Assembly (NCBI GenBank): GCA_012862575.1 | Contig: BLSF01000038.1 | Location: 348,729 to 412,728, forward strand | Source of the DNA: Parietichytrium sp. I65-24A | Taxonomy: Eukaryota; Sar; Bigyra; Thraustochytrida; Thraustochytriidae | Reading direction: 5' to 3' | DNA: 64,000 nt | Shown here: piece by piece, positions 30,785 to 60,150 of the stretch | Layout of the letters: the number at the start of each line of letters is the position of its first letter | Position numbering within the stretch: the first letter of the stretch is position 1 | The notes under the pieces: generated by a model | What the model was told of the DNA's origin: nothing | Database searches by the model: none | Seen by the model: only the letters and a program-made list of their open reading frames with translations | Translations under genes and position numbers: made by a program

Positions 30785-33700
30785 TTAGTCATCCCAGCCG
30801 GTTCTAGCACTCGAAGCTGTGAAGGTCTGGCCGCCATTGCGTGGTTGCTGTGGGGGATTTGGTGGCTGAAAAGCGTTTTGCTCATGTTTCCAAGAGTTTC
30901 TGCGACCCCTTCCACCTCGGCCACCACCTCGGCCACCACCTCGGCCGCCGCCTCGGCCACCGCCTCGGCCACCACCTCGGGTTGGCTTCCTCCCGCCCAT
31001 ATTTTCAAAAGCTTTTGCTTGGACTGTCACATCTGCCCTGTAATACGGCAAAGAGTCGTTCGAGTCAAACGCTCGGCACAAACCTTCAATAAAGCTTTCC
31101 TCCTCGGGAAGCACATCTGCTCTATCCACCCTTCTCTGAATGAGGTCTTCGATGGCCTCCCGACAGTTTTCCACCAGTTGCAACATGTCGTCGTCCACGT
31201 ATTCAAAGTAGATCCAGTCCTGGATGCCAACATACGTCTTGGATTGATGCGACTCACTCTCCATGTCGTAAACGAAAAACGCACCCTCTTTCACTAGCTC
31301 AAAGTTGTTTGCGACAAGAAAACGACGTATCTTTCCCATACACTCTCGCAAATCGGGTCTAGCTGCCTTCAAAGTCTTGCTCAGCCAACTCATCTTGACT
31401 CTGCCTTCATCACTGGCAGCGATGATCTCACGGATAAGGCGTAGCGCTTCTGCTTGTTGAGGGTTTTTTGTCTGATGCGCTTCCTTCAAGTCACTATGCA
31501 TAAAAGTGGAGAGCCCGGTCCCACTATCCTGGACCTTCGCCTCCCCGAAAAGGATAATAGGAAGGGGGCTTATCTGGGTGCAGTCGTAGAGGTATCGGCC
31601 GCCCTGCGTCTGCACCTTGTCGTGATACATGACCCACCGATGGTCCCATGATTGAGGTGCGGTGTTTGCGTTCACCGACCCCGGGTGCGGCTTCACTAAC
31701 CCGAGATCCTTGATGAATATCTGTGTTGGCATTCTTGCTCTCTTGTCCTGACTGGCCCCGACACGGCCAAGATTGGGGTACAGTCCGGCCATCAAACACG
31801 CTTTCGCAACTGGCCAAAGCTTCGAGTGTCTATTTAGATGAGCCAGGGTTCTGTCGGTGTCTTCGTTCTTGGGATCAATGAGCCCCGCATCGCCGAGCAG
31901 GAGCATGTATTGCGCCTTAAGATCTTGGGCCATGCAGAGCTGTTGGTGATTGAGAAACTTTTTGAAGGCGAAATTCTTTCCCATTCCCTTGGATTCGTGA
32001 TACTCCCAGTCGTCGAATGCGTTCAGCATGGCCATATGGTCGCTCGGATACCCTTCCGCGAAGCTTCTTTTGGCAGCGTCCGCTTGAGACTTGGCCTCCA
32101 TCGGTGTAACAAAAATTGTCCGCTGACTGAGAATCGCAGTGATTGTCACGACAGGATCCAAACACCCAAATATGCAAGCCATAACGAGAGACTTGCCTAT
32201 TTGAGGCCCCATCGGAAGAGTGGACAAGCAACGCCCCAGGGACGTAATATCTTCGTTTTCTACTCGCAGAGCCCCGATCCTGGTGAGGAGCTCAAGTGCA
32301 TTCGACGCCGATTTCTCGCTTGGAGGGGTTAGCGCCTTATTCAGAAAAGAGACGATCCCGCCGGACTGTAGAGGAGCAAGGCCCAAGGCTCGAACCTGCA
32401 GACAAAGTTGCTCCAGAGGAGTGCGTACAATCTCGGGCAGCGCATAATCTTGCAAGTGTGCATCAAAGTACCCCCTCGGCATGAGATGCCAACACTTGCC
32501 GGCACGAACACGACCAGCACGGCCGCGGCGCTGCATTGCAGAGGCCTTGCTTACCCACGTCGGCAACAAGCAGGCAATGTTTGCTTCGGCGTCATAGGTC
32601 TTCTCCTTATGCTTGCAAGAGTCGATCACGTACACCACGTCATCAATTGTGATCGACGACTCGGCAATGTTGGTCGCCAAGACTATTTTGCGTTTTCCAG
32701 GTGGGGGTGTGCGGAAAATCTCCTTCTGCTGCGCAGTGCCCATCGACCCATGGAGAGGACAGAGAAGCCAGCGCCCGTGCTTATTCTTGGCTTGCAACAG
32801 TTCGTGAAGCTTCTTAATGTCATCCCAGCCGGGCAAAAACACCAACACCGCGCTGCTTGCCTCTTCGTTCCCATCAAACTGACGAGGGAGCGGAAAGTCT
32901 CTTTCGATGCGCTCGACCAAAGCCACGATGACCATGAGTGGGATCTGGTTCATGTCAAATCTTTTCAATATTGCGTCTTTAATCTCGTCGCTGCACGGGA
33001 TCCCGCCTTCCGCAGCGTAAGACGACTCCAGTATTGATTGGAGCTCTTTGGCGGCTGCTATTTCCTTCTTGTTGGTGGGCGCTCGGGCCCGCCGCTGTCC
33101 GTTCCCACCCTTCCCTGCGTCACCTGCGCTGAGATCGTGGCACCTGGAGAATTCCATGGCCTCCTCGAGATAAAAGTCTTGGACCGGGAATGCTCGACCG
33201 GGAATATGCACGACTGGAACAGGAGCATCAATTGCACGGGAAAAATACTCTGCAAAAAGGTCTGCGTTCAAGGTAGCGCTCATGAGCACGACGCGGAGGT
33301 CTTGCCGCTGCGCGAGCAGATCTCTGAGAATGACGATGAGAAAATCGGAGTCCATCGACCGCTCATGCACCTCGTCGAGGAGGATATGCGTGACTCCAGA
33401 AAGCTCCGGGTCCATCTGCAAGCGGCGAAGCAGTATTCCGGTCGTACAAAAGAGCATCCTCGTGCGCTCACTGGCGCGCCTTTCCAGCCGAATTTGGTAG
33501 CCCACCACTCCCCCCTTTTGCGACATGATATCCTCCCCGCGCTCAGCCGCCACTCGCGATGCGACACCGATGGCGCTGATTCTCCGCGGCTGTGTGCACA
33601 CAATATTGCAGTGCTCGCCGCGACTCCACGCGTCCTCGAGCACGTACTGCGGTATCTGCGTCGTCTTACCGGACCCCGTCGCGCCGCTGACCACCACCAC

Positions 33701-34273
33701 GCGGTTCCGCCTCACAGCCTCTACCACTGCACCGCGATGCTCGAACGTCGGCAGCTTCCGTCTGAACTTGTCCAATTCCGGGTCTGCAGGCGCCGCCTCC
33801 TGCACCAACTTGTGCACCTCGCGCGACCTCTTTCCCGCCCGCTCCTCTTCGCTGTTCCGCGTCCTCTTTCCCATTTCCGCCCCGAGATTTCTCTGCGCGG
33901 GACGGTGGCCTCGCGCTCGCAAGAGTTCATGCAGCGCATTTTGCAGCTGCTTCCTGACCCGCTCTTCCATTGCGAGCACTTGTGGCTTGGTGTCCACCTT
34001 CTCTTTGTTCGCCGTCTGCTCGTCCTCGTCCAGCTCCTCGTCCAGCTCTTCGTCGGGGTCCTCGTCGGCGTGTTCCGACCCGAAATACCCTGAAGGAGGC
34101 TCCCCGCAGTTCACGCCCAGCCGAGCTAGATCGTTCAGAGCCTTGCGGCGAGCCTCCTCGTGCCGCTGCTGCCGCGACGCCTGCCTCTCCGCAGCGGACT
34201 GCGGAGCGCCGCGCGAGGACCCTCCGCGCAGTGGGTGTCCCCGCGGGAGATGCTTCTGCCAGTGGTAAGGCAT
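30785..34273 (-). CDS. DEAH/RHA-type RNA helicase with C-terminal RGG box (DHX36/DHX57-like, 1162 aa)
   Basis: This is an ATP-dependent RNA or G-quadruplex helicase of superfamily 2. Motifs in order: I GATGSGKT (about 197-204), Ia TQPRR, II DEVH (300-303), III SAT (332-334), VI QRRGRAGR, then HA2 and OB-fold regions. A C-terminal run of GGGRGGGRG repeats (encoded by the 30900-30985 repeat) gives an RGG RNA-binding tail. The N-terminal 180 residues are acidic and low in complexity. DEVH with YQIRLE and LFCTTGILLRRL is typical of the DHX36/DHX57/DHX29/plant DExH1 branch rather than Prp2/16/22/43. The first ATG (MPYHWQKH) is used; the frame opens six codons earlier only with GTG. No intron is seen. 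Confidence 0.95.
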   Translation of the reverse strand: MPYHWQKHLPRGHPLRGGSSRGAPQSAAERQASRQQRHEEARRKALNDLARLGVNCGEPPSGYFGSEHADEDPDEELDEELDEDEQTANKEKVDTKPQVLAMEERVRKQLQNALHELLRARGHRPAQRNLGAEMGKRTRNSEEERAGKRSREVHKLVQEAAPADPELDKFRRKLPTFEHRGAVVEAVRRNRVVVVSGATGSGKTTQIPQYVLEDAWSRGEHCNIVCTQPRRISAIGVASRVAAERGEDIMSQKGGVVGYQIRLERRASERTRMLFCTTGILLRRLQMDPELSGVTHILLDEVHERSMDSDFLIVILRDLLAQRQDLRVVLMSATLNADLFAEYFSRAIDAPVPVVHIPGRAFPVQDFYLEEAMEFSRCHDLSAGDAGKGGNGQRRARAPTNKKEIAAAKELQSILESSYAAEGGIPCSDEIKDAILKRFDMNQIPLMVIVALVERIERDFPLPRQFDGNEEASSAVLVFLPGWDDIKKLHELLQAKNKHGRWLLCPLHGSMGTAQQKEIFRTPPPGKRKIVLATNIAESSITIDDVVYVIDSCKHKEKTYDAEANIACLLPTWVSKASAMQRRGRAGRVRAGKCWHLMPRGYFDAHLQDYALPEIVRTPLEQLCLQVRALGLAPLQSGGIVSFLNKALTPPSEKSASNALELLTRIGALRVENEDITSLGRCLSTLPMGPQIGKSLVMACIFGCLDPVVTITAILSQRTIFVTPMEAKSQADAAKRSFAEGYPSDHMAMLNAFDDWEYHESKGMGKNFAFKKFLNHQQLCMAQDLKAQYMLLLGDAGLIDPKNEDTDRTLAHLNRHSKLWPVAKACLMAGLYPNLGRVGASQDKRARMPTQIFIKDLGLVKPHPGSVNANTAPQSWDHRWVMYHDKVQTQGGRYLYDCTQISPLPIILFGEAKVQDSGTGLSTFMHSDLKEAHQTKNPQQAEALRLIREIIAASDEGRVKMSWLSKTLKAARPDLRECMGKIRRFLVANNFELVKEGAFFVYDMESESHQSKTYVGIQDWIYFEYVDDDMLQLVENCREAIEDLIQRRVDRADVLPEEESFIEGLCRAFDSNDSLPYYRADVTVQAKAFENMGGRKPTRGGGRGGGRGGGRGGGRGGGRGGRGRRNSWKHEQNAFQPPNPPQQPRNGGQTFTASSARTGWDD
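30900..30985. repeat. 12-bp in-frame repeat coding the RGG tail
   Basis: CTCGGCCACCAC/CTCGGCCGCCG-type units repeat about seven times and encode RGGG on the minus strand inside the helicase gene. Confidence 0.9.
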
Positions 34274-34846: not shown

Positions 34847-37045
34847 TCAGTGGATACTTTCGAGAGGGATCGGCGAGTCTTCTGTTTTGCTGTTTTCGTT
34901 CTCATTGATCATTTTCCACAGATCCAAGATGGAGCCATTATTGCTCAGGAATTCGACGTAGTCCGGGTCCCCCTTGTTGTTGTTGTTGTTGTTGTTGCCG
35001 CTAGCCCCAACGTGTTGGCCTTGGGAGTGAACTTCAGAATCAGCGAGCTCTGCGGACATATCTACAGATTGCAAGAGCTTGTCCGCCTCCTCTGCACCGT
35101 TCTTAGCCTGTTGTCGGACCTTCGCAGGTCTTTTACCAGCAGATGCAACGGCTGCCGCAGCAACGGGCTCCTCCTTAGTTTCGCTCTTGGACACCGAAGG
35201 TTTCTGAATTGGCTCGTGCTCCCCTTCGTCTTCAGACTCCGAGTCGCCGCTAGAGCCCGCATGCGAGGTATTATTCGCTTCTCGTGCCGCCGTCTCCTTC
35301 GCGGCAGTGTCCTTCTTCTTCTTCCCCTTCTTCTTCTTTTTCTTACTTGCTTTTTTGGGCTGCTGTTTGCTTTTACTATCGTTCGGAGAAACATCCTTCC
35401 AAAGGGCGTTTTGGTAAGACAGATGGTACACGGAGCAATCGCAAACACTGCAAACGTTACACTTGCACTCGGTGCAAAATTTTGTAGAGGGCGAGTTCTT
35501 CGGGTACGGCGTCTGGCATATCGCGCATATTACGAAATACTGTTTCCAGATTTTCGCGGCGCGTTTGGAAATCGCCGAGTTGCGATGTCTCTGCAAGGCG
35601 TCTATCTTCTCGGTGTCCAGCAAGCCAGCGTGAATATTATTCCCCGGCTCCCCCAACTGCACCGCAATATCTTCTCCAACTTGCAAAATTTTCTCCAGCC
35701 CTTCTAAAGCCATCATCACCATTGAGTCATCATTGAGGAGGTTACATAAAACAGAAACACAACCAGCTTTCACCAAATGATCGATCTGCTCCTCCGCGCC
35801 ACACGATGTTGCGTTCAAAAGAACCCAACATGCTTCTATCTTCACATCTGGATCGGTATTTGCACCTTTTGAAGCCAGCTCCACCAAGGTTGGGATGCTA
35901 CCAGAGTTTAGCACACACTGAATCTGGTCCGTCGTACCGGCAGCGATGTTGCTGAGTGTCCAGCAGGCTTCCTTCTGGATCTCCCGGTTTGAATGCTGGA
36001 TCAGATCGCGCAAGCAGCGCACAGCCCCGCATTCAATAATGTGTTGTGTAAAATCCTGGTCGTCCTCCGCACACACAATATTCCCCACAGTTCGCAGCGC
36101 TGGTTTGACTACGCGCCAATTCTTGCACGACAAAAGTTCCACGAGACGCGGGCACACCTTCGCCTTCACAACTGCTTGGATGTGCGGACTTGGTCCATCG
36201 CACAGGTGGCTCAGCGCCCAGCAAGCGTGGGAGAGAATCTCAGTATCTTCGCTTTGCAGCACCTCTTTGATCGTCCGCAACACAGCACCGACCACGAACA
36301 CTGGCCTGGGCTGCCCGTCGCACAGGTTACTCAAAGTCCACGTCGCAATTCTAAGCAAGCTCGTGCGCTTTGTGTCCTGCATACATCTAAGCAGTGGGTC
36401 AAGTACCCCGGCAGCAAGAACTGTGTCTCTAGCGGAGGTCCCATCCCCAGCTATATTTCCTAAAACCCAGACTGCCTGCTCCAATACCTCCCAGTGGTTT
36501 GAGTCCAACAACGCCACCAGCGTAGGAACAGCATTGTTTTTTATCAAGAGATTTGTGTGCTCTGTTGTGCCTGCCGCAATGTTTGTGAGCGCCCACAACG
36601 CCTCCACTTGCAGCGCCGCGTGCCCGCTCTTCTTCAGAAACTGGAGGAGCTGCGGCACAATATTCTGGTCCAACATGTCTTGTATCGGACCCATCGGGTC
36701 CCGCTCGCCCATGGAGAGCAGCTGCCGAAACTTTTTCGTGCCTGCTAACTGGACATCTGACTTTTCGCTTTTCAACATGACTTGCAGGTTGCTAAATGCC
36801 AGCCGCAGGTTATCCAATTGCTTAACTTGTTTCGGCCCAGCAGGCGGAGCCATTTTGTTCCCGTTACGGGAATTTGTCATGGCGGCTGCAAGCTGCGAAG
36901 CCATGAAAGCCTCCATCCTCAGATTCGACCCTCCCGACTCGTCGTCGTCCTCCGCTTGCAGCCCATTCACGACAACATCCGAGTCTGCACACGGTTTACC
37001 GCTCTCGTCCAGCAGTACTACCTTTGGTTCGTCCGTCCGCTCCAT
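34847..37045 (-). CDS. Importin-alpha (karyopherin-alpha) variant without IBB and with a Cys-rich C-terminal module (732 aa)
   Basis: This is an armadillo-repeat nuclear import adaptor. About ten ARM repeats fill residues 75-490, with the Trp-x3-Asn ladder that binds nuclear localisation signals well kept (WALTNIAAG, WVLGNIAGDG, WTLSNLCDG, WTLSNIAAG, plus RTVGNI and WVLLNATS). The first 75 residues are acidic or neutral and show none of the Arg/Lys clusters of an importin-beta-binding domain. After the ARM region comes a module with eight cysteines and a histidine (C507, C510, C524, C527, C529, C532, C535, C537, H541), then a lysine-rich block (about 566-581), acidic stretches and a poly-Asn run. 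Normal importin-alpha has about 530 residues. The first ATG is at 37045; the frame opens 31 codons earlier with TTG right after a TAA, so a missing IBB could only come from an undetected upstream exon. Confidence 0.93.
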   Translation of the reverse strand: MERTDEPKVVLLDESGKPCADSDVVVNGLQAEDDDESGGSNLRMEAFMASQLAAAMTNSRNGNKMAPPAGPKQVKQLDNLRLAFSNLQVMLKSEKSDVQLAGTKKFRQLLSMGERDPMGPIQDMLDQNIVPQLLQFLKKSGHAALQVEALWALTNIAAGTTEHTNLLIKNNAVPTLVALLDSNHWEVLEQAVWVLGNIAGDGTSARDTVLAAGVLDPLLRCMQDTKRTSLLRIATWTLSNLCDGQPRPVFVVGAVLRTIKEVLQSEDTEILSHACWALSHLCDGPSPHIQAVVKAKVCPRLVELLSCKNWRVVKPALRTVGNIVCAEDDQDFTQHIIECGAVRCLRDLIQHSNREIQKEACWTLSNIAAGTTDQIQCVLNSGSIPTLVELASKGANTDPDVKIEACWVLLNATSCGAEEQIDHLVKAGCVSVLCNLLNDDSMVMMALEGLEKILQVGEDIAVQLGEPGNNIHAGLLDTEKIDALQRHRNSAISKRAAKIWKQYFVICAICQTPYPKNSPSTKFCTECKCNVCSVCDCSVYHLSYQNALWKDVSPNDSKSKQQPKKASKKKKKKGKKKKDTAAKETAAREANNTSHAGSSGDSESEDEGEHEPIQKPSVSKSETKEEPVAAAAVASAGKRPAKVRQQAKNGAEEADKLLQSVDMSAELADSEVHSQGQHVGASGNNNNNNNKGDPDYVEFLSNNGSILDLWKMINENENSKTEDSPIPLESIH

Positions 37046-43070: not shown

Positions 43071-43449
43071 AGGTGGCGATGTCCCCTTTCGCAGTCGCAA
43101 GTGCTTGCTTGCCGTGAGAGCTGTTGTTCAAGTAATAGTTGTAGGTACCGGTATTTATGTCCCTTGTAGCAATAATGGTTCATTTTTTCCTCTTTGTGGT
43201 GCGGGTTGCTCAGGCACGGATGAGTCCGCTATTGTGAGCGGCGTTGTGCTAGGCGGAGAAGAAGGAAGCGTGCTGACAGGGTTAAAAAGGTTCAAGTGGC
43301 TGTTTGACAGTGTAAATTCAATTCAAAGGCATATCATAGAGATCGAAAATAAAGTGAAAATCGTCATTCTATTCTTGCACCTTACGCACCCTTTTTTTCG
43401 CCAAAAACATTGCTCCCAATCTACTGCTTCGTCCGGTTCGCCATGCTCT
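43071..43449. other. Convergent intergenic region carrier / TOM7
   Basis: This is 3' flank of both genes. No gene is seen. Confidence 0.7.
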
Positions 43450-43825
43450 TTAAAACAATGGATTTGGGTTGAATGTGCTGAAGAGATCAGGTTTAGGCTC
43501 GCTCACCTTAAATCCGATGTACAAAGTGAGAGGAAGAAAAGTCCAGTGCACCTGCGCAACCAATTGTCAACGCAAAACTGCGGTTAGTATCCCTATCCCA
43601 CCTTCCCCCATCTCCCATCTCCCATCTCCCATCTTCCTTTGCCGAGCTCAATCTACTCGCATCGCCCACTCCCTCGTCATCCCGCACACAGCCACTTGGC
43701 CACTTGGCCACTTGGCCACTTACCACCACCTTGAACAAGTCCAATCCAGTTGTGCATGCACGCTCCACCTTTGGGTACGCCTCCACGAGCGCCTCAGCCA
43801 CAGCGTTGCCAGATCCGCTTCCCAT
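43450..43825 (-). CDS. TOM7: TOM7, subunit of the mitochondrial outer membrane translocase; two exons, 67 aa
   Basis: Exon 1 is 43724-43825 (34 codons from ATG 43825), exon 2 is 43450-43551 (33 codons plus TAA), and the phase-0 intron of 172 bp (43552-43723) has donor GTAAGT, a TACTAAC branch point and acceptor GCGCAG. The spliced protein has the tail-anchored Tom7 signature: an amphipathic start (GLDLFKVV), then HWTFLPLTLYIGFK, which aligns with the conserved W-x-FIPL-x-x-YLGF core, and a C-terminus SEPKPDLFS like plant TOM7 (SDPKPQLYQ). Tom7 regulates assembly of the TOM complex. The intron contains two short repeat arrays. Both exons are too short to appear as complete open frames. A read-through frame of 141 codons over the intron is not the product. 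Confidence 0.85.
43607..43634. repeat. (CCCATCT)4 heptamer repeat in the TOM7 intron
   Basis: Four consecutive CCCATCT units lie inside the intron. Confidence 0.9.
43691..43723. repeat. (CCAAGTGG)n repeat abutting the TOM7 splice donor
   Basis: On the minus strand the donor GTAAGTGG is followed directly by three to four CCAAGTGG units, so the repeat begins at the splice site itself. Confidence 0.85.
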
Positions 43826-45349
43826 TTTCCTCCTCGCTCTTTCTCGCTCTTTTTCGCTCTTTCTATCCGCCTGTCCCTCTCTCCTCGATTCGCGCTCTGA
43901 GCTCCTCTCCTGCGTCTCTTCTCGTCCTCTCAATCCCTCTCTCTCCTCTCATCTCCTCTCAATCTCCTCTCAGACGCACTGTACTTAGTCTTCGCTAAGA
44001 GCTCGCTAGCCCCGTTCTTCGCGACGCTCTGGTAAGCGTTCCTTTGTTCGCTACTGGTAGTGTGACTAAAGCGTAGCGAGAACAACGAACGGATCCTAGT
44101 TCGATAGGAGGGCTAGGCGGTGGTTGTTAGGGCATGGGGAATGGCTCCTTGTTCGCTACTGGAGGATAAAGGGTGAGGATAGGATGCGGAAGTCCCATGT
44201 CTGTCGAGGGGTTTTTGGTAGAGAGTGGTAAGGAGGCAGAGAATTGGTCAAATGAATGAATTTGACATTGACGAGTGAGCTTATCTCGAGAACTTGATTG
44301 AGATCTCTTTATTTTTCTTCATTTACAGTTGATTGAAATCAAAATTTGTGGAGTTTTGATTTTGAAGAGGCATCAAACAAAAGAAAGGGCCAGAAGAGAC
44401 GCGAACTACGGCTGAGCCCACGGAATGTGAACTGTTATTAATTATGAAGGATCTGCGCTGGTTTCTAGTGACTGACTGGCCGGGACGTGGGTTCAGAAAT
44501 GCATATTCACCATCGACGGAACCAGCGCCAAGGACGATACTGGTCGTCGTGTATTTTTCTTGACTGTTGCTTCCTCAGACTAAAGACGGAAAGGAGGATC
44601 ACGAGCTATCGTGGAAAGACGTCCGACATTTGAAAGGGACTCGAGCACCAAAAAGAGACTTCTTGGGAGAAGTCGCTGATCGCGTCCACTGGAGCGAGCT
44701 TAGGCGAACCGGGCGAATATTTCGAGCAGCCCATTCGTCGGTCGCTCAGGACTTCAATGTTGCAAACCACCATCCGTTCCCCGCCGATTTAGAGTCGCAT
44801 GTAGATACCATAGATTCGCAGCCCAGAACAACCGCGCTGAGCAAGGTCCCTTCAATTTTGGACAAGAGCTCCCAGAGCTGCGCCACGACCTCCGCATGCC
44901 TGACAGTGAGCATTCTCGCCGCATCACACAACGTGCGAGTTTCTCGCAAAGCTAAGCTTCACTCTCAGTTGCATCCTACTAAATTCTAAATTCTAAATTC
45001 CAAGAAGCCCAAATACTCACGTGCCAACGCCGGTGCTGGTGCTGGTCCACCCACTCCTGTGCGCCCCGCGAAGAACCCGACGCAGCTCCAAGCCCACAGT
45101 CCATCCATTTCATCCATTTCATCCAACAGACCTTCGTTTGCACCCAAAGCTTTCGCACTTATCTTGCCAACACTCTCCACCCCAAGTCTCACTTCCTTCC
45201 CCACAAACACCCCCCGCAACAAAACCCGCAGCGCCCCTCAAGTCCCCTCAAGTCCCCTCAGGTTCCCTCAAGTGGGCGAGTGGCGTGCAAAGCGCCGCGG
45301 TGTGAGAGGAGGCAACGGGCAAGTTGGAGATCGCGACACCATCGACACC
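43826..45349. other. Divergent intergenic region TOM7 / SAP-ABC-GNAT gene
   Basis: This holds promoters of both genes. Repeats include AAATTCT units near 44981-45002 and CCTCAAGTCC units at 45237-45277. A plus-strand frame at 44567-44989 sits behind a good acceptor (CTTCCTCAG) but is not recognisable. The frame of the downstream gene is open for 97 codons upstream of its ATG without another ATG. Confidence 0.55.
45237..45277. repeat. CCCCTCAAGT tandem repeat
   Basis: Four imperfect units of about 10-11 bp lie about 75 bp upstream of the SAP-ABC-GNAT start codon. Confidence 0.85.
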
Positions 45350-47863
45350 ATGGGAGACGCAAGGTCGGCGGCAGATGCGCTGGACTCGCTCACGAAGCGC
45401 GAGGCACGGAGCATGCTGCGCGAGCTGGGGCGATCCAACTTTGGCCCTCGCACGGCGCTGCTGGAGAGGCTGGCTATGCACGTGCCGTCGGCGGCTGGGG
45501 TGGTCCGGGACGAGAGCGGGAGCGGAAGAACGGAGCTGGTTGACGCAGCAGGCGCGAGCATTTCATTGGCCAAACTCGCGGTGCCAGCGACGGTGGTGGC
45601 CGAAGAAGCGCCACAGGAAGTGGCGTTGGAAGACAGGTTTCCGCAGAGCGAGCTGGTGGCCAATGCAGACCTCCTGGGACGACCGGCGCTGACGGTGAGG
45701 CCGCCACGGACATCGATACAGGACAGCGACGGAAACATGGGGGCCCAGGAGATGATGCTGATGGAGGAGGACAAGGCGAGGTGGAGCGCTGAGCTGGGTC
45801 GGCAGGTTGCGAAGGCCGCTAAAGAGGAGGCGAAAGTAGTGGTGATTGTGGGGGAGTCAGGGGCTGGAAAGTCGGCGGTGATGAAGCAGGCAGCATTGGC
45901 GCTTGGCAAACCTGGAGCAGTGCTGGACGACCCGTTTGAGTGGGACTCGAAAAAGGCGGTTATATCGCAGTTTGAGACCGAGGACGAGGCGACCAAGTGG
46001 CTCATGGCCGCGGGGCTCACGTCTATTCCGTCCTGGTGCAAGCCATATCATATCTTATCCACAGGAGAACGCTACAGAGCTCGTCTGGCCAAGGAGATGC
46101 AGCGCGCAAGCCGATTTGACAGGCCGGTCTTATTGGACGAGTTTACAGGCCATCTGGATAGAGTCACCGCAGCGAGTTGCGCTGCAGTCCTTGCTAAGCA
46201 GCTCCGCAGGATTGGCCACGGCGCGATTTTGGCTTGCAGTCTCATGGACATAATCGCGTACATCCAGCCCGACCTCATCGTGAACGTGCGATTTGGAAGT
46301 CATGAATTGCTAAAGGTCAGGCAGCCCTGCCGCACTGGACCAAAGGTGAGGATACGCTTCAGTGAGACTGCTGCGAGCGAATACGCAGAAGGTGATGCTC
46401 GTCGAGCAGAGGCAGACCGTTGCAGCATCGGGGCGCAGCCTGGAAGCGTGCTTCAGAACCCGGCAGCTGAAGAAGTAGTAAAAGAAGCCTTTCGATTTGA
46501 TATCGACGAAGAGCAAGACCAGCCTGGCGGGACTGTGTTGCACACGAAAGTTGACGTTGACCAGGCAACAGAGATGTGCGACAAGCTCTTCGATCGTGCT
46601 TTCACCGGCCAGTGCGCACTCAAGATCCCGATGATAGACCCGAATTTGGTTGACAGTTCTTTCACATTAGGTGTTATTACAGGTTTATCCGGATCGGCCA
46701 AGAGCGTTGTCCTTCGGAATTATTTTGGCCAGCCGAGCGTGGCCCTCTGGGATGACCAAATGTGTCTTGCAGACCACTTTGACAACCAACAAGTCGCGCA
46801 AGACCGATTTGATCTTGTGTCGCTCGATTGGAACATATACAAAAATAGGCTGTACCATACCCTTAGTAGTGGCGAGAAAGAGCGTGCGGACTTGGCTCGT
46901 CTTATCGACCAGAGCCCGTTGTGTTTAGACGAATTTACAAGCACGCTGGACAGAGATTTGGCGGAGGAAATTGCGAGAAAAGTTGGGAGATATGTCCGCC
47001 AGCACAAAGTGGGCCAGCGTACCGTTCTCGTGTCGTGCCACCAAGACATATTGCGGCTCCTTGATCCAGATTGGGTATTCGACACTGTAGCGGGGCTGCA
47101 GCAACATCAGGTGGACCCCGCCGTGTCTTGTCCGATAGAGATACCAGGCACGAAGGGCAAACTGATCCACTTTGTCAAAGGTGCTGACAACCTCGTCGAT
47201 TTGCAAGTGCCCGAGTTCCTGCTCTCCTTAGAACCTTGTGAGCCATGGCTGTGGTCGCTCTTCCGAGACCACCACTACAAGACGAAAACACTATCCAGAA
47301 ATGCGAGAACCTTCGTGCTTCGCAATGGTGAAGCTCTCGTGGGGTTTGTTGCAGCGATTAAACAAGTTGGCAAGCACAAGGTGAGAGGTGAAGATGGGGG
47401 TGGTTGCAAACGGCTTCGCAAAGGCTCTGTCAGCGACAGCGCGCAGCCGCACGGCGCGGAGGAACAGGCAGAGTCCAGTTGGCGTGCTCATAGAACGGTA
47501 GTTCTGCCGTCCTGGCAAGGTCTTGGGGTGGGTTCTCGACTAAGCGATGCTTGTGCAGAAATGCATCGCCTTGCTGGGAGTGCGTATCTAGCCCAAACCG
47601 TACATCCTCGTTTTGGACAATATCGAGACAACAGTCCACTATGGCAACCGTTGGAGTTCAACCACACCACTCAGCACTACAAAATCGATTCCTGGAGACA
47701 GCGAATGGAGAACGTTCGCGTGAAGCTTCGAGTACCAAAATTCATTTATGCGCACCAATACGTTGGCCCCAGGTCTCCAGAGGACGAAGATCACTTGAGA
47801 AAGAGGCTCCAAATTGACTCGGACGAAAAGAAGGCGTCTACATTGTCTACATTGTCTACATAA
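45350..47863 (+). CDS. SAP domain - two ABC ATPase domains - GNAT acetyltransferase fusion (837 aa)
   Basis: Domains in order: a SAP-like DNA-binding motif (about 14-42, LTKREARSMLRELG), ABC domain 1, ABC domain 2 and a C-terminal GNAT fold (about 610-790). ABC1 has Walker A GESGAGKS (168-175), signature LSTGE (236-240) and Walker B LLDE (D263-E264). ABC2 has Walker A GLSGSAKS (445-452), signature LSSGE (505-509), Walker B CLDE (D527-E528) and an H-loop His564. The D-loop region reads DEFT, not DEPT. GNAT motif A is RTVVLPSWQGLGVGSRL (from 715), then HPRFGQYRDNSPLW. No membrane helices are seen, so it is a soluble ATPase. The ABC plus GNAT pairing is that of COG2401 proteins of archaea, bacteria and phages. 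A DNA- or RNA-linked role is inferred from SAP; the substrate is unknown. ATG 45350 sits in the context CACCATGG. Confidence 0.93.
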   Translation: MGDARSAADALDSLTKREARSMLRELGRSNFGPRTALLERLAMHVPSAAGVVRDESGSGRTELVDAAGASISLAKLAVPATVVAEEAPQEVALEDRFPQSELVANADLLGRPALTVRPPRTSIQDSDGNMGAQEMMLMEEDKARWSAELGRQVAKAAKEEAKVVVIVGESGAGKSAVMKQAALALGKPGAVLDDPFEWDSKKAVISQFETEDEATKWLMAAGLTSIPSWCKPYHILSTGERYRARLAKEMQRASRFDRPVLLDEFTGHLDRVTAASCAAVLAKQLRRIGHGAILACSLMDIIAYIQPDLIVNVRFGSHELLKVRQPCRTGPKVRIRFSETAASEYAEGDARRAEADRCSIGAQPGSVLQNPAAEEVVKEAFRFDIDEEQDQPGGTVLHTKVDVDQATEMCDKLFDRAFTGQCALKIPMIDPNLVDSSFTLGVITGLSGSAKSVVLRNYFGQPSVALWDDQMCLADHFDNQQVAQDRFDLVSLDWNIYKNRLYHTLSSGEKERADLARLIDQSPLCLDEFTSTLDRDLAEEIARKVGRYVRQHKVGQRTVLVSCHQDILRLLDPDWVFDTVAGLQQHQVDPAVSCPIEIPGTKGKLIHFVKGADNLVDLQVPEFLLSLEPCEPWLWSLFRDHHYKTKTLSRNARTFVLRNGEALVGFVAAIKQVGKHKVRGEDGGGCKRLRKGSVSDSAQPHGAEEQAESSWRAHRTVVLPSWQGLGVGSRLSDACAEMHRLAGSAYLAQTVHPRFGQYRDNSPLWQPLEFNHTTQHYKIDSWRQRMENVRVKLRVPKFIYAHQYVGPRSPEDEDHLRKRLQIDSDEKKASTLSTLST

Positions 47864-50800
47864 CACCAGGTTTCCCCGTCCCTCTGTCGCGTTTCCCCGT
47901 TGTGTGTTCGCGTTCCGTGGACGAGTACTTTTTCCAATGATCTCTATCTTTTCTTTGTTCTCCTGTCGCCTTGTCTCATTATCCCAGTCCTTGTGAGTGA
48001 AAGGTGGGGGAGCAAAACACGAGTTGCGGTGAAGTTCTTTCCTCAATCGATCTCTTGCTCTGCTTTCCACCAGAGTAAAGAGAGCCTCGCAGAAAGTTTC
48101 TTTTATCCACCTCCATCTCCTTCCTTCTCAACCTATTTTGATTGATGAAAATCGAAGACACCATCTCCATTATCTCCATCTCCAATTTGCTTGCAAGACA
48201 AGAATTTTAACTCTTCCACATGATCATTCACATTGTTCTTCCAAGAATGCCGTGTTCTTGTCCGTGTTAATGCACCCCTCAGTGCGGGGTGTGGTATCGA
48301 GGTAGCAACCGGATCGGAGGGTAATCGTGCCGAGAAGGGTCCAACCGAGTGTATACAAGAAAGCAGAACGAAGACATACCTACCGCTGCAAGCACAGGGC
48401 AGTTGCGATCATGATCGCAACAATCGCGTCCGACGCCAGATCTTCTCTAACCGGGATTCATTTGAGCTGTCGAACAACTAACTGCAACACATTTCCTCCC
48501 CGAATTCTCCAAACTGTAAATGGAGGATCGTCACGAGTGGCGCAAGAGACACAGCCTTTCCTCCCTTTGGAAGTCTTCTCATTCTGAATATTGCGAGCCC
48601 TGATTTAATTTTTCTGAAATTCTGATACTGAGTACTCGGCCGATTTCTGACCTCCGCAGAAGGAACGAAGATTCAGCCGTTTGCGCTGCCTTCTTCCTTC
48701 TCGCGGCCTCCCAGTATTCCCAGTCCACCAGAGTTGAATGAACAAGAGCAATACAAGAGCAATACAAGAGCAACGAGCGGCCCGAGAGACAGACTCCAGC
48801 GCTGGCTGAGTAACCAATCAAACTCTGCCGTTCGCGACATTTCGCGACTCGGTAGACTCGCTCTTCGTAGGCCCAGCTACCCAAATTCTGAATTCTAAAT
48901 TCTAAATGAATTATTCTAAATTCCCTGCATGTGAGTGTGCGAAGCAAGCGTTTGCGGCAACCGGGGATAAGCTGAGGTCACACGCGTCATTGCATCCATG
49001 AGGATGCCGTTCAAGTTGTCATTCGCACATGTGCGACGCTCTCATGATCTCTCTGTCCACGTATTGTCACAGTACCTTTCCAACAGCATTCTAGTAGTGC
49101 AGGTGAGCCTAACAGACGGCATAGCTGGTTCTGTAAAGACCCCATGGGAGAGTACTATTGTTGACAGTGGCTGCGGTATAGGGACCAAGCTGTGCCAGAC
49201 TTCGGCAAATTACAGTTTCGCCAATCTGGCCAATGGAGAAATAGATAGATAGATAGATACCTGGTACTTTAGAGCACTGTATGAAAAGGCCAAGAAGCTA
49301 AAAGCTTATGGCTGGGGAAACGGCGATGAAAAGCTTGACTGCGAGTACAACTGATGGGTTCTTTGGGTGGCGAAGGAGGTGTGAAAATCCTAAGCGAAGA
49401 ATCTTTGCTCGTGAGGAGGAGGCAGCGAAGAATAAATTCAACTTCTCAATCAATGACTTCAATGGCCCAAGCTAGCTAGAGTGTTTTTTCTTTCTTGATC
49501 AAATCAAATAATAAAAATAATTCCAAATGACATTGAAGAAAGAACCAAATGAAAAAGTTAGGTGAATGAAAAAGTTTCCCGAACTCGGAAATTAAGTGAC
49601 TCGCTCCATAGCTTGTACCTTATCATTATCGGTATCCGCTCTTTAGGATCTGGCACTTTGTTCCTCAAGGATCTCGAAGGTCTCTCAGAGGAGGTCTCCC
49701 CCTCAGTAAACTTACCCACGAAAGCGAACGCCTCCCGTAAGAGGTAAAGGGACTAATTTAGGAGCTCCACCAGCGTCTCCCTACACTGTAGATTGGATTA
49801 GTCTCCCCGCGTCATATCGAGGAGGCGCTCCATACCTCCATCCGCGGGTAGTGGCCGATGCCCCGACTCACATAATATTGCCAGAGTTGCTGTCCACGGG
49901 GGCATTGAACATACCTTTACTTTCACTCGGTGGATCATAACACCCTTTGTCTTGTAACACTTATTGTGAGATGATTACTACATATCTAGGTGATTTGTTG
50001 TGTATATACAATACAAGACACTTAAGGGCAGTGTACAATCTGAAACCCTGACCCACGAAGGTGACGTGAACACTGCGGCGAATTTGGCAATTCGTACATT
50101 GATTCCGGAATTTCTGCACAAGACCTCGACGAGTTCAATAAACATTTCAATACAATATGATAAAGTCTTGTAACAATTATTCCACCACCACACCTGCTCA
50201 CCGGGCTGAATGACGCCCTGAACCTAAAGCAATAATTCTTGTAACATATTCTTCAGGAATAGCCAAGTTTTAGATTAATAATTGCCATTCAGCACCATAC
50301 ACGACCCCGCGCGGCTCTGGAAGTTGTGCGCTCGTGTTCCGTGAGAGTCATCCACAATCCTACTCAAATCTCTAACTACATCACTCCAACCGTGCATACT
50401 GGGAAGGGGGAGACTAAAGCGACCCTAAAGCACTCCCCTCTCACGGTTGGCTAGATGAGAGTAATTCAAATTTTCCATTTTGCACTCCAGCTTCCTTGCT
50501 AAGACTCCATAACCCCACCCAGCGACTTCACTAGCACCCTTAAGCACAGGCGCTGGGATGGCCATTAGGAGAGGCCGTAGGAGACATAACCCCAACTCGG
50601 AGTGAATGAGAGGCAATGGAAACTTTTTCAACTTTCACATTTGATTTTGATTGACAGCGAATAGCCTTCCTTCTTGTCAACCGAGATGCAAAAGGAAACA
50701 AAGAAGAAACACAAGTTGGGTGGTGCGTGAGACACTGTTCAGAAAGCCAAACAACACACTCAGAGAGAGACAGAGAGAGAACTTCACATTGCAGTGTTTC

Positions 50801-51240
50801 CATAGTGCAGTTTGCCTCTACACGTTGCAGCGGCGTATCCTCTCTCTACCGAGTACTCTAGCAACGCGAGAGGGAGAGAGGGAGAGAGGAAGAGAGAAGG
50901 GGTTTCAAACGAAAAGGAAGTAGAGGCAGACTCGAAATAGCGAGGTGGAAGAGCGGCAGCGAAGGTTTGGTCCGCGTTGAACGTGCGAGGACAGTGCGCG
51001 AGAGAGGGATTGTGAAAGCTTTCCGCTCAGGTCTGCGCCGCCGCCTCAGAGCTCGGTGGCAAGAAGCGGGTGGATGGAATTTAAGCCTTCATTCAAGCAC
51101 TCCGCAGTGAAAGGAGGCACCAAGGTGTGAGAGGGCCGAAAGCGTTTGGGATTGTTTGCATTTTGTAAGGCGGGCGAGGACTGCCGACTCCGAGAGCCAA
51201 AGCGGTGTTGCGGAGTTCAGAGAAAAGGAAGGACAGGAAG
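47864..51240. other. Intergenic region of 3.4 kb with possible mobile-element relics
   Basis: No intact gene is seen. Notable items: a TTGTAACA motif three times (near 49951, 50167, 50235), a GATA run (49243-49260), AAATTCT repeats (48888-48925), and on both strands around 49560-49940 short protein-like frames broken by stops, which may be the remains of a retroelement. The last 300 bases should hold the promoter and leader of the epimerase gene. Confidence 0.5.
49243..49260. repeat. (GATA)4 microsatellite
   Basis: Four to five ATAG/GATA units occur in non-coding DNA. Confidence 0.85.
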
Positions 51241-58326: not shown

Positions 58327-60150
58327 ATGACGAAGGCGATGGCGCAGGAGGAGAGCGCGAACGCGGTCGGGAGTGCGAAGCTGGCGGATCCGGTGGTAGC
58401 CCCGGCGCCACCAGAGAGGGTTGGAGATGAGGATGGATGGTACATGCGTGTTATGGCGGCCGCGAGTGAGGCGGAGAGTGGGGAAGTGGACGAGGCGGAG
58501 CCATACAAGCTCAAATACCGCGCGCGCAAGAAGCTCCAAGATGCTATTGCGGAACTCCGCAAGGAGGAAGAGTTTCGGCGAGCAGCGAGGCTGCAAGTGT
58601 GGCTGGGAATCAACTTTTATCTGACTGAGGAGAATGCGCAGGGGGAGAAGACGTTGATGGAGGCGGCGGAAATCTTGGAAGGCGCCGAGTCGTGGGCGGA
58701 GTTGAACAGACTATGGACGCAGGGATCTTCCGACAAGGAAGATGCCGATTTGAAGAAAGTAAGGCCAGAGAGTAGCTTGAACGTACAGGGGATCTCGGAT
58801 CTCGTGAATGCCTACAACTACCTCGGTATACTCTGGTCACATCGAGCGATGGGAAACGAGAATGCGCAGCGATACCTTGAAAGAGCGCGCCAGCTTTTTC
58901 TGCAAAGCGACCCTTCGAACGGGGACGAAGAACCCGGTGTTCGCGATCTGGAGGAGGCGCATACCAACACACTCTTCTTTCTTGCTCAGGTATACACGAG
59001 TCAAGCCAAAGCTGCAGATGGTGCTGCATTGTGCGCCCTCACCTTGAATCGTCAAAAGCGGTATGGCCACTCGTTTGACCCTATGCGATGGTCTCGTGAC
59101 GCTATTGGGCTTTCTGCCTACTATGGGATCGGAACTGGGCGAACCAGCCTCGCAGCTCACTTCCTTGACGCCGCAGTTCGAGCGCTCCCAGACGCGTACG
59201 AGACAAATGAGGAGGTGAGGAGTTTACTTTCTGACTTGTTGCGTTCCAGAGGAGCCCTCTATGGGGAGATATTACTTGTGGCATCAAACCTTCACAAAAG
59301 AGGCATCGAGCCGTCCGGGCATTGGAAAAGCGAGGAGGAACAGCGCTACGTCGACGAAGCTTTGACGCTTGACGACGATTTCGCCCGTGACGAAATTCCA
59401 CCATCCGTACAGTCGCTCTCTTCTTTTGAAAAAGCAAGAGACGTGTTTAAACTGGCGAATGGGGCTTTTGAGAAGGCGAAGGAGTATTTTGTGCTTGACG
59501 GATTTGCTTCCGACCATCTGAAGATTTCACAGTCTCAGAGTCAGCTGTATCGCAATCTCGCTTGCTACGAAGACGATCGCAAAAGGTTTATTGCAATGCA
59601 ATCTCGCCGGGAGAAGCTCCTTTCTCCTCTATTAGATCAGCTCAATCCGGAGTTTTATGGTGTTGAGCACCAGGAGATCTCCTACGAGCTTGGCGAAGCA
59701 TGTCGCGAGATTCTCAGCGCATGCACTGTAGAAAAGGACATGCCCATGAAAGAAAGAGACTCGGTAACCAAGAGGTTGAACGAGAGTGCTTTCAAATCCA
59801 TTAAATACTACTCACAATTTATCAGCTCGTTTGAGGCTGCCGAAGAGAAAGACAAAAAGAATGGCCTGGGAGACACCTCACCAGAAGACTCGGTCCCGCT
59901 TCTTTACAGCCATTTTTGGATCGCCCATGCCTATCACAAGATCATGCCAGCGGAAAAATTCTTACCACAGGGCCGCACAACGCTCCTCAACGCTAGCCTT
60001 CAATATTTCCAAAAGGCTCTGACGCTTGCCAAGGAGCGCATCCCGAAGGACTCGCATCTCTTCGAAAAGGAGCTGGACATTTGCAAGCAGATGGCGCAGC
60101 TGCTTCCTGTGCAGATTCACACCATCACGACCAAGGGGATCCTCATATAG
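58327..60150 (+). CDS. KIFBP: KIF-binding protein (KIFBP/KBP family, 607 aa)
   Basis: This is an alpha-helical TPR-like protein that binds kinesin motor domains and blocks their contact with microtubules in animals. Characteristic segments are all present in order: EPYKLKYRARKKL near the start, RLQVWLGINFYLTEEN, NYLGILWSHR, HTNTLFFLAQVYTSQAK, FDPMRWSRDAIGLSAYY, SFEKARDVFKLANGAFEKAKEYFVLDGFASDH, LLSPLLDQLNPEFY, SAFKSIKYYSQF, and the C-terminal ELDICKQMAQLLPVQI. The length (607) is close to the human protein (621). ATG 58327 gives a sensible N-terminus. The gene suits a ciliated cell with kinesin-based transport, like the dynein gene at the left end. Single exon. Confidence 0.93.
   Translation: MTKAMAQEESANAVGSAKLADPVVAPAPPERVGDEDGWYMRVMAAASEAESGEVDEAEPYKLKYRARKKLQDAIAELRKEEEFRRAARLQVWLGINFYLTEENAQGEKTLMEAAEILEGAESWAELNRLWTQGSSDKEDADLKKVRPESSLNVQGISDLVNAYNYLGILWSHRAMGNENAQRYLERARQLFLQSDPSNGDEEPGVRDLEEAHTNTLFFLAQVYTSQAKAADGAALCALTLNRQKRYGHSFDPMRWSRDAIGLSAYYGIGTGRTSLAAHFLDAAVRALPDAYETNEEVRSLLSDLLRSRGALYGEILLVASNLHKRGIEPSGHWKSEEEQRYVDEALTLDDDFARDEIPPSVQSLSSFEKARDVFKLANGAFEKAKEYFVLDGFASDHLKISQSQSQLYRNLACYEDDRKRFIAMQSRREKLLSPLLDQLNPEFYGVEHQEISYELGEACREILSACTVEKDMPMKERDSVTKRLNESAFKSIKYYSQFISSFEAAEEKDKKNGLGDTSPEDSVPLLYSHFWIAHAYHKIMPAEKFLPQGRTTLLNASLQYFQKALTLAKERIPKDSHLFEKELDICKQMAQLLPVQIHTITTKGILI

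Follow-up and report, generated by a model that had tools for sequence, protein, structure and literature searches.

Within a 64,000-nucleotide stretch of contig BLSF01000038.1 of the thraustochytrid Parietichytrium sp. I65-24A (hereafter the window, whose positions are used throughout unless a coordinate is prefixed by the label of another locus, L001, L002 and so on), one uninterrupted open reading frame on the + strand (45350..47863) runs from an ATG in an ACCATGG context to a TAA stop and encodes a protein of 837 amino acids. Upstream of 45350 the frame stays open to 44990 with no in-frame ATG. From its amino terminus onward, the protein has a SAP-like motif that scores weakly, a pair of ABC ATPase domains and a GNAT acyltransferase domain, all encoded on the + strand. 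This combination had been put forward in an original prediction made from the letters alone, and it was confirmed here as a single 837-codon frame; the family membership, the domain order and the doubling of the ABC domain are solid.

Among the PHROG profiles the best family by far was phrog_11143 (E 1.4e-97, 328 bits), which is annotated as 'unknown function' and bears out the prokaryote- or phage-type core that had been proposed. This family probably corresponds to COG2401, a term that turned up nowhere in the literature searched. A family hidden Markov model (HMM) built without the window protein scored 411 bits on it in total, with separate matches to the first ABC domain (ABC1, residues 154-325, 133.8 bits), the second (ABC2, residues 396-585, 146.5 bits) and two stretches of the GNAT domain (residues 618-677, 38.2 bits; residues 704-828, 87.8 bits). 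Pfam ABC_tran matched the whole protein in two stretches (35.2 bits vs a cutoff of 25), so that the two soluble ABC modules of the original prediction were recovered by both methods, and Acetyltransf_1 reached 23.1 bits with the C-terminal 217 residues as the query, above its cutoff of 20.7, and 20.1 bits, slightly below, with the whole protein. An identity as an ABCF, ABCE or transporter protein was rejected: the 25 NCBIfam families listed, of 126 matched at E ≤ 1, all fell far under their own cutoffs (for example 54 vs 261 and 38.9 vs 380 bits), and the best of them, at 54 bits, compares with 411 bits for the family HMM. This rejection is a matter of scores and not of a tree. A sequence profile search of the PDB returned ABC proteins, the best at 47 bits, with no member of the family among the 60 matches listed of 258.

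ABC1 (45809..46324) retains a G-S-P-W-P element and an intact Walker A motif, GESGAGKS (residues 168-175, 45851..45874). ABC2 (46535..47104) retains DEFTS, CHxD and PDW. Its H-loop, CHQD (residues 563-566, 47036..47047), is intact and has the His found in 125 of 125 non-redundant relatives, the set over which all conserved-column counts were taken, and its Walker A motif, GLSGSAKS (residues 445-452, 46682..46705), has A450 where the same 125 relatives have Gly. The window protein has two ABC domains vs one in each of 161 full-length relatives (phmmer hits and motif count), and because the relatives examined have one, the doubling looks derived. At the 25 ABC columns conserved in at least 98% of relatives, ABC1 departs at six (the H-loop His, L298; the preceding Cys, S297; the D-loop Ser, G267; a Leu; the Trp of PDW; and an early Gly) and ABC2 at five (the Gly preceding the Walker A Lys, A450, and the G, P, W and P of the element ahead of the signature), with none shared, and the full ABC motif set is present only when the two domains are counted jointly. 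All five changes in ABC2 lie before the signature and five of the six in ABC1 lie after it, a split that was picked post hoc and is suggestive only. The two domains share 25% identity, whereas their best identities to viral copies are 38% (ABC1) and 43% (ABC2). The best tree keeps ABC1 and ABC2 apart; a test of sister origin, on long branches, gave an approximately unbiased P value (p-AU) of 0.331. We also considered that the start of a lost GNAT domain might be preserved after ABC1, and this idea was dropped, as the ABC1 match stops at residue 325.

The GNAT domain (residues 618-828, 47201..47833) has near its start an HHY motif (residues 641-643, 47270..47278), in which H642 and Y643 are found in 125 of 125 relatives and H641 in 92%, followed by Lys in the window protein and Leu in 97% of relatives. 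It also carries QGLGVG (residues 723-728, 47516..47533), presumably the acyl-coenzyme A (acyl-CoA) pyrophosphate loop of GNAT enzymes, with Q723, G724, G726 and G728 conserved at 98-100%. All 12 GNAT columns conserved in at least 98% of relatives are retained (W635, F638, H642, Y643, R715, V717, P720, Q723, G724, G726, G728 and W765), as are 19 of the 23 conserved in at least 90%. The C-terminal phrase and the motif of the GNAT part that the original prediction had likened to COG2401 proteins are present and contain family-invariant columns. A negative GNAT profile result, which had been named as refuting the prediction, did not occur.

At the amino terminus, a SAP-like motif (residues 11-44, 45380..45481) matches Pfam SAP (PF02037) at 15.9 bits (E 0.0099), short of the gathering score of 23.9, and for this reason it is called 'SAP-like'. 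SAP was the sole Pfam family matched at E ≤ 10 by the N-terminal 67 residues; the SAP motif of the original prediction stands as possible and falls below the score for membership. None of the four relatives scanned with Pfam (L006, L008, L090 and L115) had a SAP match. An AlphaFold2 model built from 70 aligned sequences had a mean predicted local distance difference test (pLDDT) score of 69.5 and a predicted template modeling score of 0.55. In this model the SAP-like part forms two short helices (residues 16-28 and 34-43) at low confidence, with pLDDT in ten-residue blocks of 48-70 to residue 40. Block values were 62-89 in ABC1 and 78-97 in ABC2, dropping to 53 and 62 at the ends of these two domains, and in GNAT they were 86-97 for the core and 37-91 for its C-terminal part. 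A low-confidence GNAT insert (residues 684-706, 47399..47467; block pLDDT 44-57) contains a basic KRLRK, by eye a possible nuclear signal.

The codon usage of the whole 837-codon frame correlated at 0.94 with that of ten neighboring window genes, whose leave-one-out correlations among themselves were 0.80-0.94. Its two parts alone gave 0.83 and 0.80, and alternative frames across 45350-47863 gave 0.74 and 0.71 (other forward frames) and 0.81, 0.74 and 0.62 (reverse frames). With its host-like codon usage, the frame therefore has the appearance of a coding gene long established in its host. Its upstream neighbors include genes for a mitochondrial carrier and a BMT5-like rRNA methyltransferase, and one for an epimerase is found downstream; because of these neighbors the contig is eukaryotic, in agreement with the original prediction of an uninterrupted frame in a eukaryotic genome. 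Of the two flanking genes that it had named, the epimerase was found and TOM7 was not confirmed: none was recognized by eye among ATG frames of at least 45 codons at 43100-51200, a look made with no TOM7 profile. Elsewhere in the window, which has a G+C content of 51.5%, long uninterrupted frames resembling a DEAH helicase (30785-34273, - strand), importin alpha (34847-37045, - strand) and KIF-binding protein (58327-60150, + strand) were recognized by eye, as was a DnaJ-like frame.

We next turn to the relatives. By tblastn, 80 of 50,697 phage records matched at E ≤ 1e-3, some, judging by coverage, in the ABC part only. Searches with an alignment as the query found relatives encoded in at least 595 of 600 matched IMG/VR stretches and in 329 of 362 matched stretches of genome contigs. 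We analyzed 167 loci, namely 7 phage records, 80 of the at least 595 IMG/VR stretches and 80 of the 329 from genome contigs, most of the latter titled Planctomycetota or its subgroups. These loci held 172 matching frames, and eleven that were incomplete, split or too short for the coverage rule were left out. The remaining 161 full-length relatives have a single ABC domain followed by GNAT and are 329-433 amino acids long, except for four frames of 524-611 amino acids, two of which are fusions with a ParB-like protein. In phages pT24 (L003) and TR-TP1 (L004) the ABC and GNAT parts are in separate adjoining frames. No close relative turned up in viral_contigs (searched with the protein or its parts; one search returned two loci, 30% identical to the query) or in genome_contigs (searched with the protein), collections that are non-eukaryotic, so that this absence is uninformative for eukaryotes. 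No eukaryotic ABC-GNAT member was reported in the literature searched. Among plasmids, 893 of 72,556 records match; among the 12 listed, query coverage is 33-37% in nine, 21% in one and 56% in two (Delftia and Paraburkholderia), whose matches reach into GNAT.

A tree of 92 rows was built from 57 viral or phage sequences, 34 of 68 bacterial ones and the window protein, with a bootstrap that had not settled. A branch with support 100/98 splits it into a group of 36, comprising 33 bacterial rows and phages L002, L006 and L007, and a group of 56, in which the window protein and L088 join 54 rows from viruses or phages. The branch leading to the window protein is long (2.8 changes per column), its letter composition is unusual and none of its neighbors is starred. 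Since it groups with viral and phage rows, the phylogeny favors a phage-type ancestry, with no donor named by the tree.

The neighborhoods of the relatives differ between bacterial and viral loci. In 71 of the 78 bacterial loci the ABC-GNAT gene has a ParB-like gene adjoining it or fused to it, as against 2 of the 7 from phages and 1 of 79 IMG/VR loci (adjoining). These counts were made with an HMM whose seeds came from Jace and EastWest, two phages, and which was then iterated on the loci being counted; the few partial-frame loci were excluded. In two cases ParB, ABC and GNAT form a single frame (L092:5149-6984 and L150:5344-7098). The ParB-like protein of L106 had as its best PHROG match a family named DNA methyltransferase, alongside ParB-like PHROGs, and also matched a PADLOC model for a type II methyltransferase (E 4.7e-6), over the N-terminal part of that model. 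In the window itself no ParB-like match was found at E ≤ 1 among 1308 frames, the partner being a feature of the bacterial subgroup that does not define the family. A terminase-like frame was present in 38 of 80 bacterial loci (the one scanned was Terminase_6C below its cutoff), a lambda-type portal in 29 (the one scanned was PF05136, 5.9e-22) and a small-terminase-like frame, labeled by eye and with no Pfam match, in 18, and because of these a good part of the bacterial loci look like prophages.

The 80 viral loci keep company with DNA polymerase A (16), primase (12) and UvrD helicase (12), and six of them carry a gene for Mom, a DNA adenine modifier with a GNAT-type fold (PF25680, confirmed for two), which was found in none of the 80 bacterial loci. 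In four viral loci, two of them nearly identical, the Mom gene abuts the 3' end of the ABC-GNAT gene (L009:6068-6991, L063:6134-6604, L081:5577-6224 and L082:3123-3770), with an overlap of four bases in L009 and L063. A search with Mom from L081 found an ABC-GNAT gene in the flank of 9 of 17 loci, the nine being near-identical and including the L081 and L082 contigs. Genes for aspartate 1-decarboxylase also lie nearby in three separate genomes (L002:7125-7550; L128:1508-1891 and L123:7103-7393, from one assembly; and L025:3132-3641, ~1.2 kb upstream), a possible link to acyl donor or CoA supply and a hint that the transferred group could be related to beta-alanine. With replication genes, ParB-like and terminase-like genes and, in some cases, Mom as neighbors, the setting of the relatives favors a nucleobase target over a ribosome or chromatin protein. 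The original prediction had suggested ATP-gated acetylation of a nucleic-acid-associated target; these neighborhoods favor its nucleic-acid side and make a ribosome or chromatin component less favored. The earlier interpretation as a whole was partly supported.

We infer that base acylation of a nucleic acid is the best-supported function, with DNA favored over RNA as the substrate by gene context. The prediction that phage ABC-GNAT proteins acylate DNA bases reportedly goes back to Iyer in 2013. PMC7824862, citing that work, relates the prediction that a GNAT joined to an ABC ATPase makes an uncharacterized acyl modification of a DNA base, and it names phage pT24; our reading is in line with this statement about the phage form. 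Our tentative explanation, to which we give slightly less than an even chance, is that the window protein is a phage-derived, ATP-gated acyltransferase that acts on DNA (or RNA) bases and was captured by a eukaryotic nuclear genome. In its favor, besides the family match, the retained GNAT columns and the gene neighborhoods, a fold search of BFVD placed a GNAT protein of phage LE4 first (E 1.2e-24), and a fold search of the PDB had TmcA among its matches.

ABC ATPases close as head-to-tail dimers. The single-ABC phage proteins would dimerize to close two ATP sites, and the two ABC halves of the window protein may pair within one chain, where their different losses would make the two sites unequal, a situation known from ABC heterodimers. 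Site I would have the Walker A motif of ABC1 and lack the ABC1 H-loop, and site II would combine the H-loop of ABC2 and the signature of ABC1 with an altered Walker A. Probably one site holds ATP and the other turns over slowly. ATP-driven closure could then clamp the nucleic acid, which the SAP-like motif would hold, substituting for the ParB-like protein that accompanies bacterial relatives, and the clamp would present a base to GNAT for acylation with acyl-CoA as the donor. Such a working mode would resemble the ATP-driven base acetylation of TmcA/NAT10 or the GNAT-type adenine modification of DNA by Mom. In its fullest version, a nuclear, phage-descended, ATP-gated enzyme would write an undescribed acyl mark on DNA bases, having gone from a homodimer to a single-chain pseudo-heterodimer with a SAP-like motif replacing a ParB-type partner, which we regard as somewhat unlikely to hold as a whole.

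Several observations weigh against this explanation. In the literature searched, we found no activity for any ABC-GNAT family member. The avoidance of the same column by the ABC1 and ABC2 losses is not significant (0 of 25 shared vs 1.2 expected, P 0.22), and the Gly to Ala change in the ABC2 Walker A could cripple nucleotide binding and may weaken site II. GNAT departs from its relatives at four columns conserved at 90-97% (R620V, L644K, D721S and R797K), and the SAP-like motif, as noted, misses its gathering score. The profile similarity of GNAT to Mom is not significant (hhalign probabilities 0.8 and 17.7), Mom genes occur in only a minority of viral loci, and the BFVD fold search placed several ordinary acetyltransferases, from rank 12, above Mom (rank 34, E 0.018). 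The match to TmcA (PDB 2zpa) across ATPase and GNAT is not rigid, with a template modeling score (TM-score) of 0.14-0.17. The ParB-like gene is nearly absent from the window protein's own group, the HMM that counts it was iterated on the loci that it describes, and two bacterial ParB-like proteins scanned, from L106 and L098, had no Pfam match at E ≤ 0.01.

Acetylation of a protein is an alternative that we consider unlikely. Here the ABC pair, on closing in an ATP-dependent manner, would position GNAT on a protein of chromatin, of the ribosome or of the replication machinery, and the SAP-like motif would only bring the enzyme to DNA. The usual targets of GNATs are amines, whether on proteins or on small molecules, and the PDB fold search, which returned many kinds of ABC proteins, included the ribosome-acting tandem ABC proteins ABCE1 and ABCF. 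However, the neighbors of the relatives are DNA-linked (ParB-like, polymerase, primase, terminase-like and some Mom genes), and none of the 25 NCBIfam families listed was above its cutoff.

Less probable again is that the protein acetylates bases of tRNA or rRNA, as TmcA/NAT10 does, and that the phage versions modify tRNA or mRNA. An ATPase precedes GNAT in TmcA as well, the Foldseek match to 2zpa covers both parts (rank 21, E 3.4e-6), and phage Jace has six tRNA genes ~5 kb from its ABC-GNAT gene, but the TM-score is only 0.14-0.17, the ATPase modules belong to different classes and the gene neighbors of the relatives point to DNA.

A role in conflict or defense, with the ABC part sensing foreign DNA ends or structures and switching on a GNAT that inactivates a component of the host or the invader, appears very unlikely. 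OLD-type ABC ATPases are described as functioning in defense systems (PMC12839542). In PADLOC, the mad3 model of the MADS defense system matched the window protein (60 bits, E 6.9e-17, two stretches) and three relatives (L001:5995-7173, L008:2117-3202 and L106:5181-6350; 27.6-44.9 bits), and relatives are patchy: of 199 genomes from the phylum to which L111 belongs, 22 have a match at E ≤ 1e-20, and in about half of these 22 the match extends little past ABC. Against this, the mad3 match is confined to the ABC part, its best stretch pairing model positions 249-323 of 374 with residues 490-565 in ABC2; it lies far below the family profile (328 bits), the PADLOC mad3 and mad8 matches all being weaker than the family's own profile; and many relatives belong to modules for phage replication or packaging. 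A relic that is decaying or no longer catalytic and serves as a scaffold would account for the long branch, the loss of the Walker A Gly in ABC2 and of the H-loop His in ABC1 and the four changed GNAT columns of 23, and is just as improbable given 837 open codons with host-like usage, the retention of all 12 of the most conserved GNAT columns and ABC losses that fall at different columns.

If the base-acyltransferase explanation is true, it could point to a eukaryotic DNA or RNA mark that is yet to be discovered; few DNA marks are known from eukaryotes so far. A remodeled nuclear member provides a concrete gene for seeking such an acyl mark on eukaryotic nucleic acids, and it offers a second lineage for working out the role of a large uncharacterized phage family. 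In PMC7824862, Mom and ABC-GNAT proteins are discussed as phage DNA modifiers.

Among known systems, the window protein has most in common with the phrog_11143 family, with which it shares ABC followed by GNAT and the motifs DEFTSxxDR, CHxD, LSxGE, HHY and QGxGxG; the family differs in having one ABC domain and, in most bacterial members, a ParB-like partner, and was seen in non-eukaryotic collections. SSU5-type phage-plasmids (L187 and L188) encode a related ABC protein next to two ParB-like genes (ParB-ParB-ABC), near terminase in plasmid p009_B (L188), but the 212-residue ABC frame of SSU5, unlike the window protein, has no GNAT match in Pfam. With Mom of phage Mu, which is encoded beside some viral ABC-GNAT genes and lacks ABC, it shares a short W...HY stretch; membership in the Mom family was rejected, as neither the whole protein (E ≤ 1) nor the GNAT part (E ≤ 10) had a Pfam match to it. 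TmcA/NAT10 is an RNA cytidine acetyltransferase that couples ATP to base acetylation through a helicase-type ATPase, and it resembles the window protein in having an ATPase module and then GNAT in one chain, as the 2zpa match reflects. Membership there was rejected as well, since the window protein's ATPase is of the ABC type (Pfam and PHROG) and the fold match is loose. ABCE1 and ABCF likewise have two ABC domains in one soluble chain and are matched in fold, but they are without GNAT, and the window protein lacks an iron-sulfur domain (Pfam) and has no listed ABCF match above cutoff. We conclude that the window protein is a remodeled variant of a known but uncharacterized phage family, in an unexpected host.

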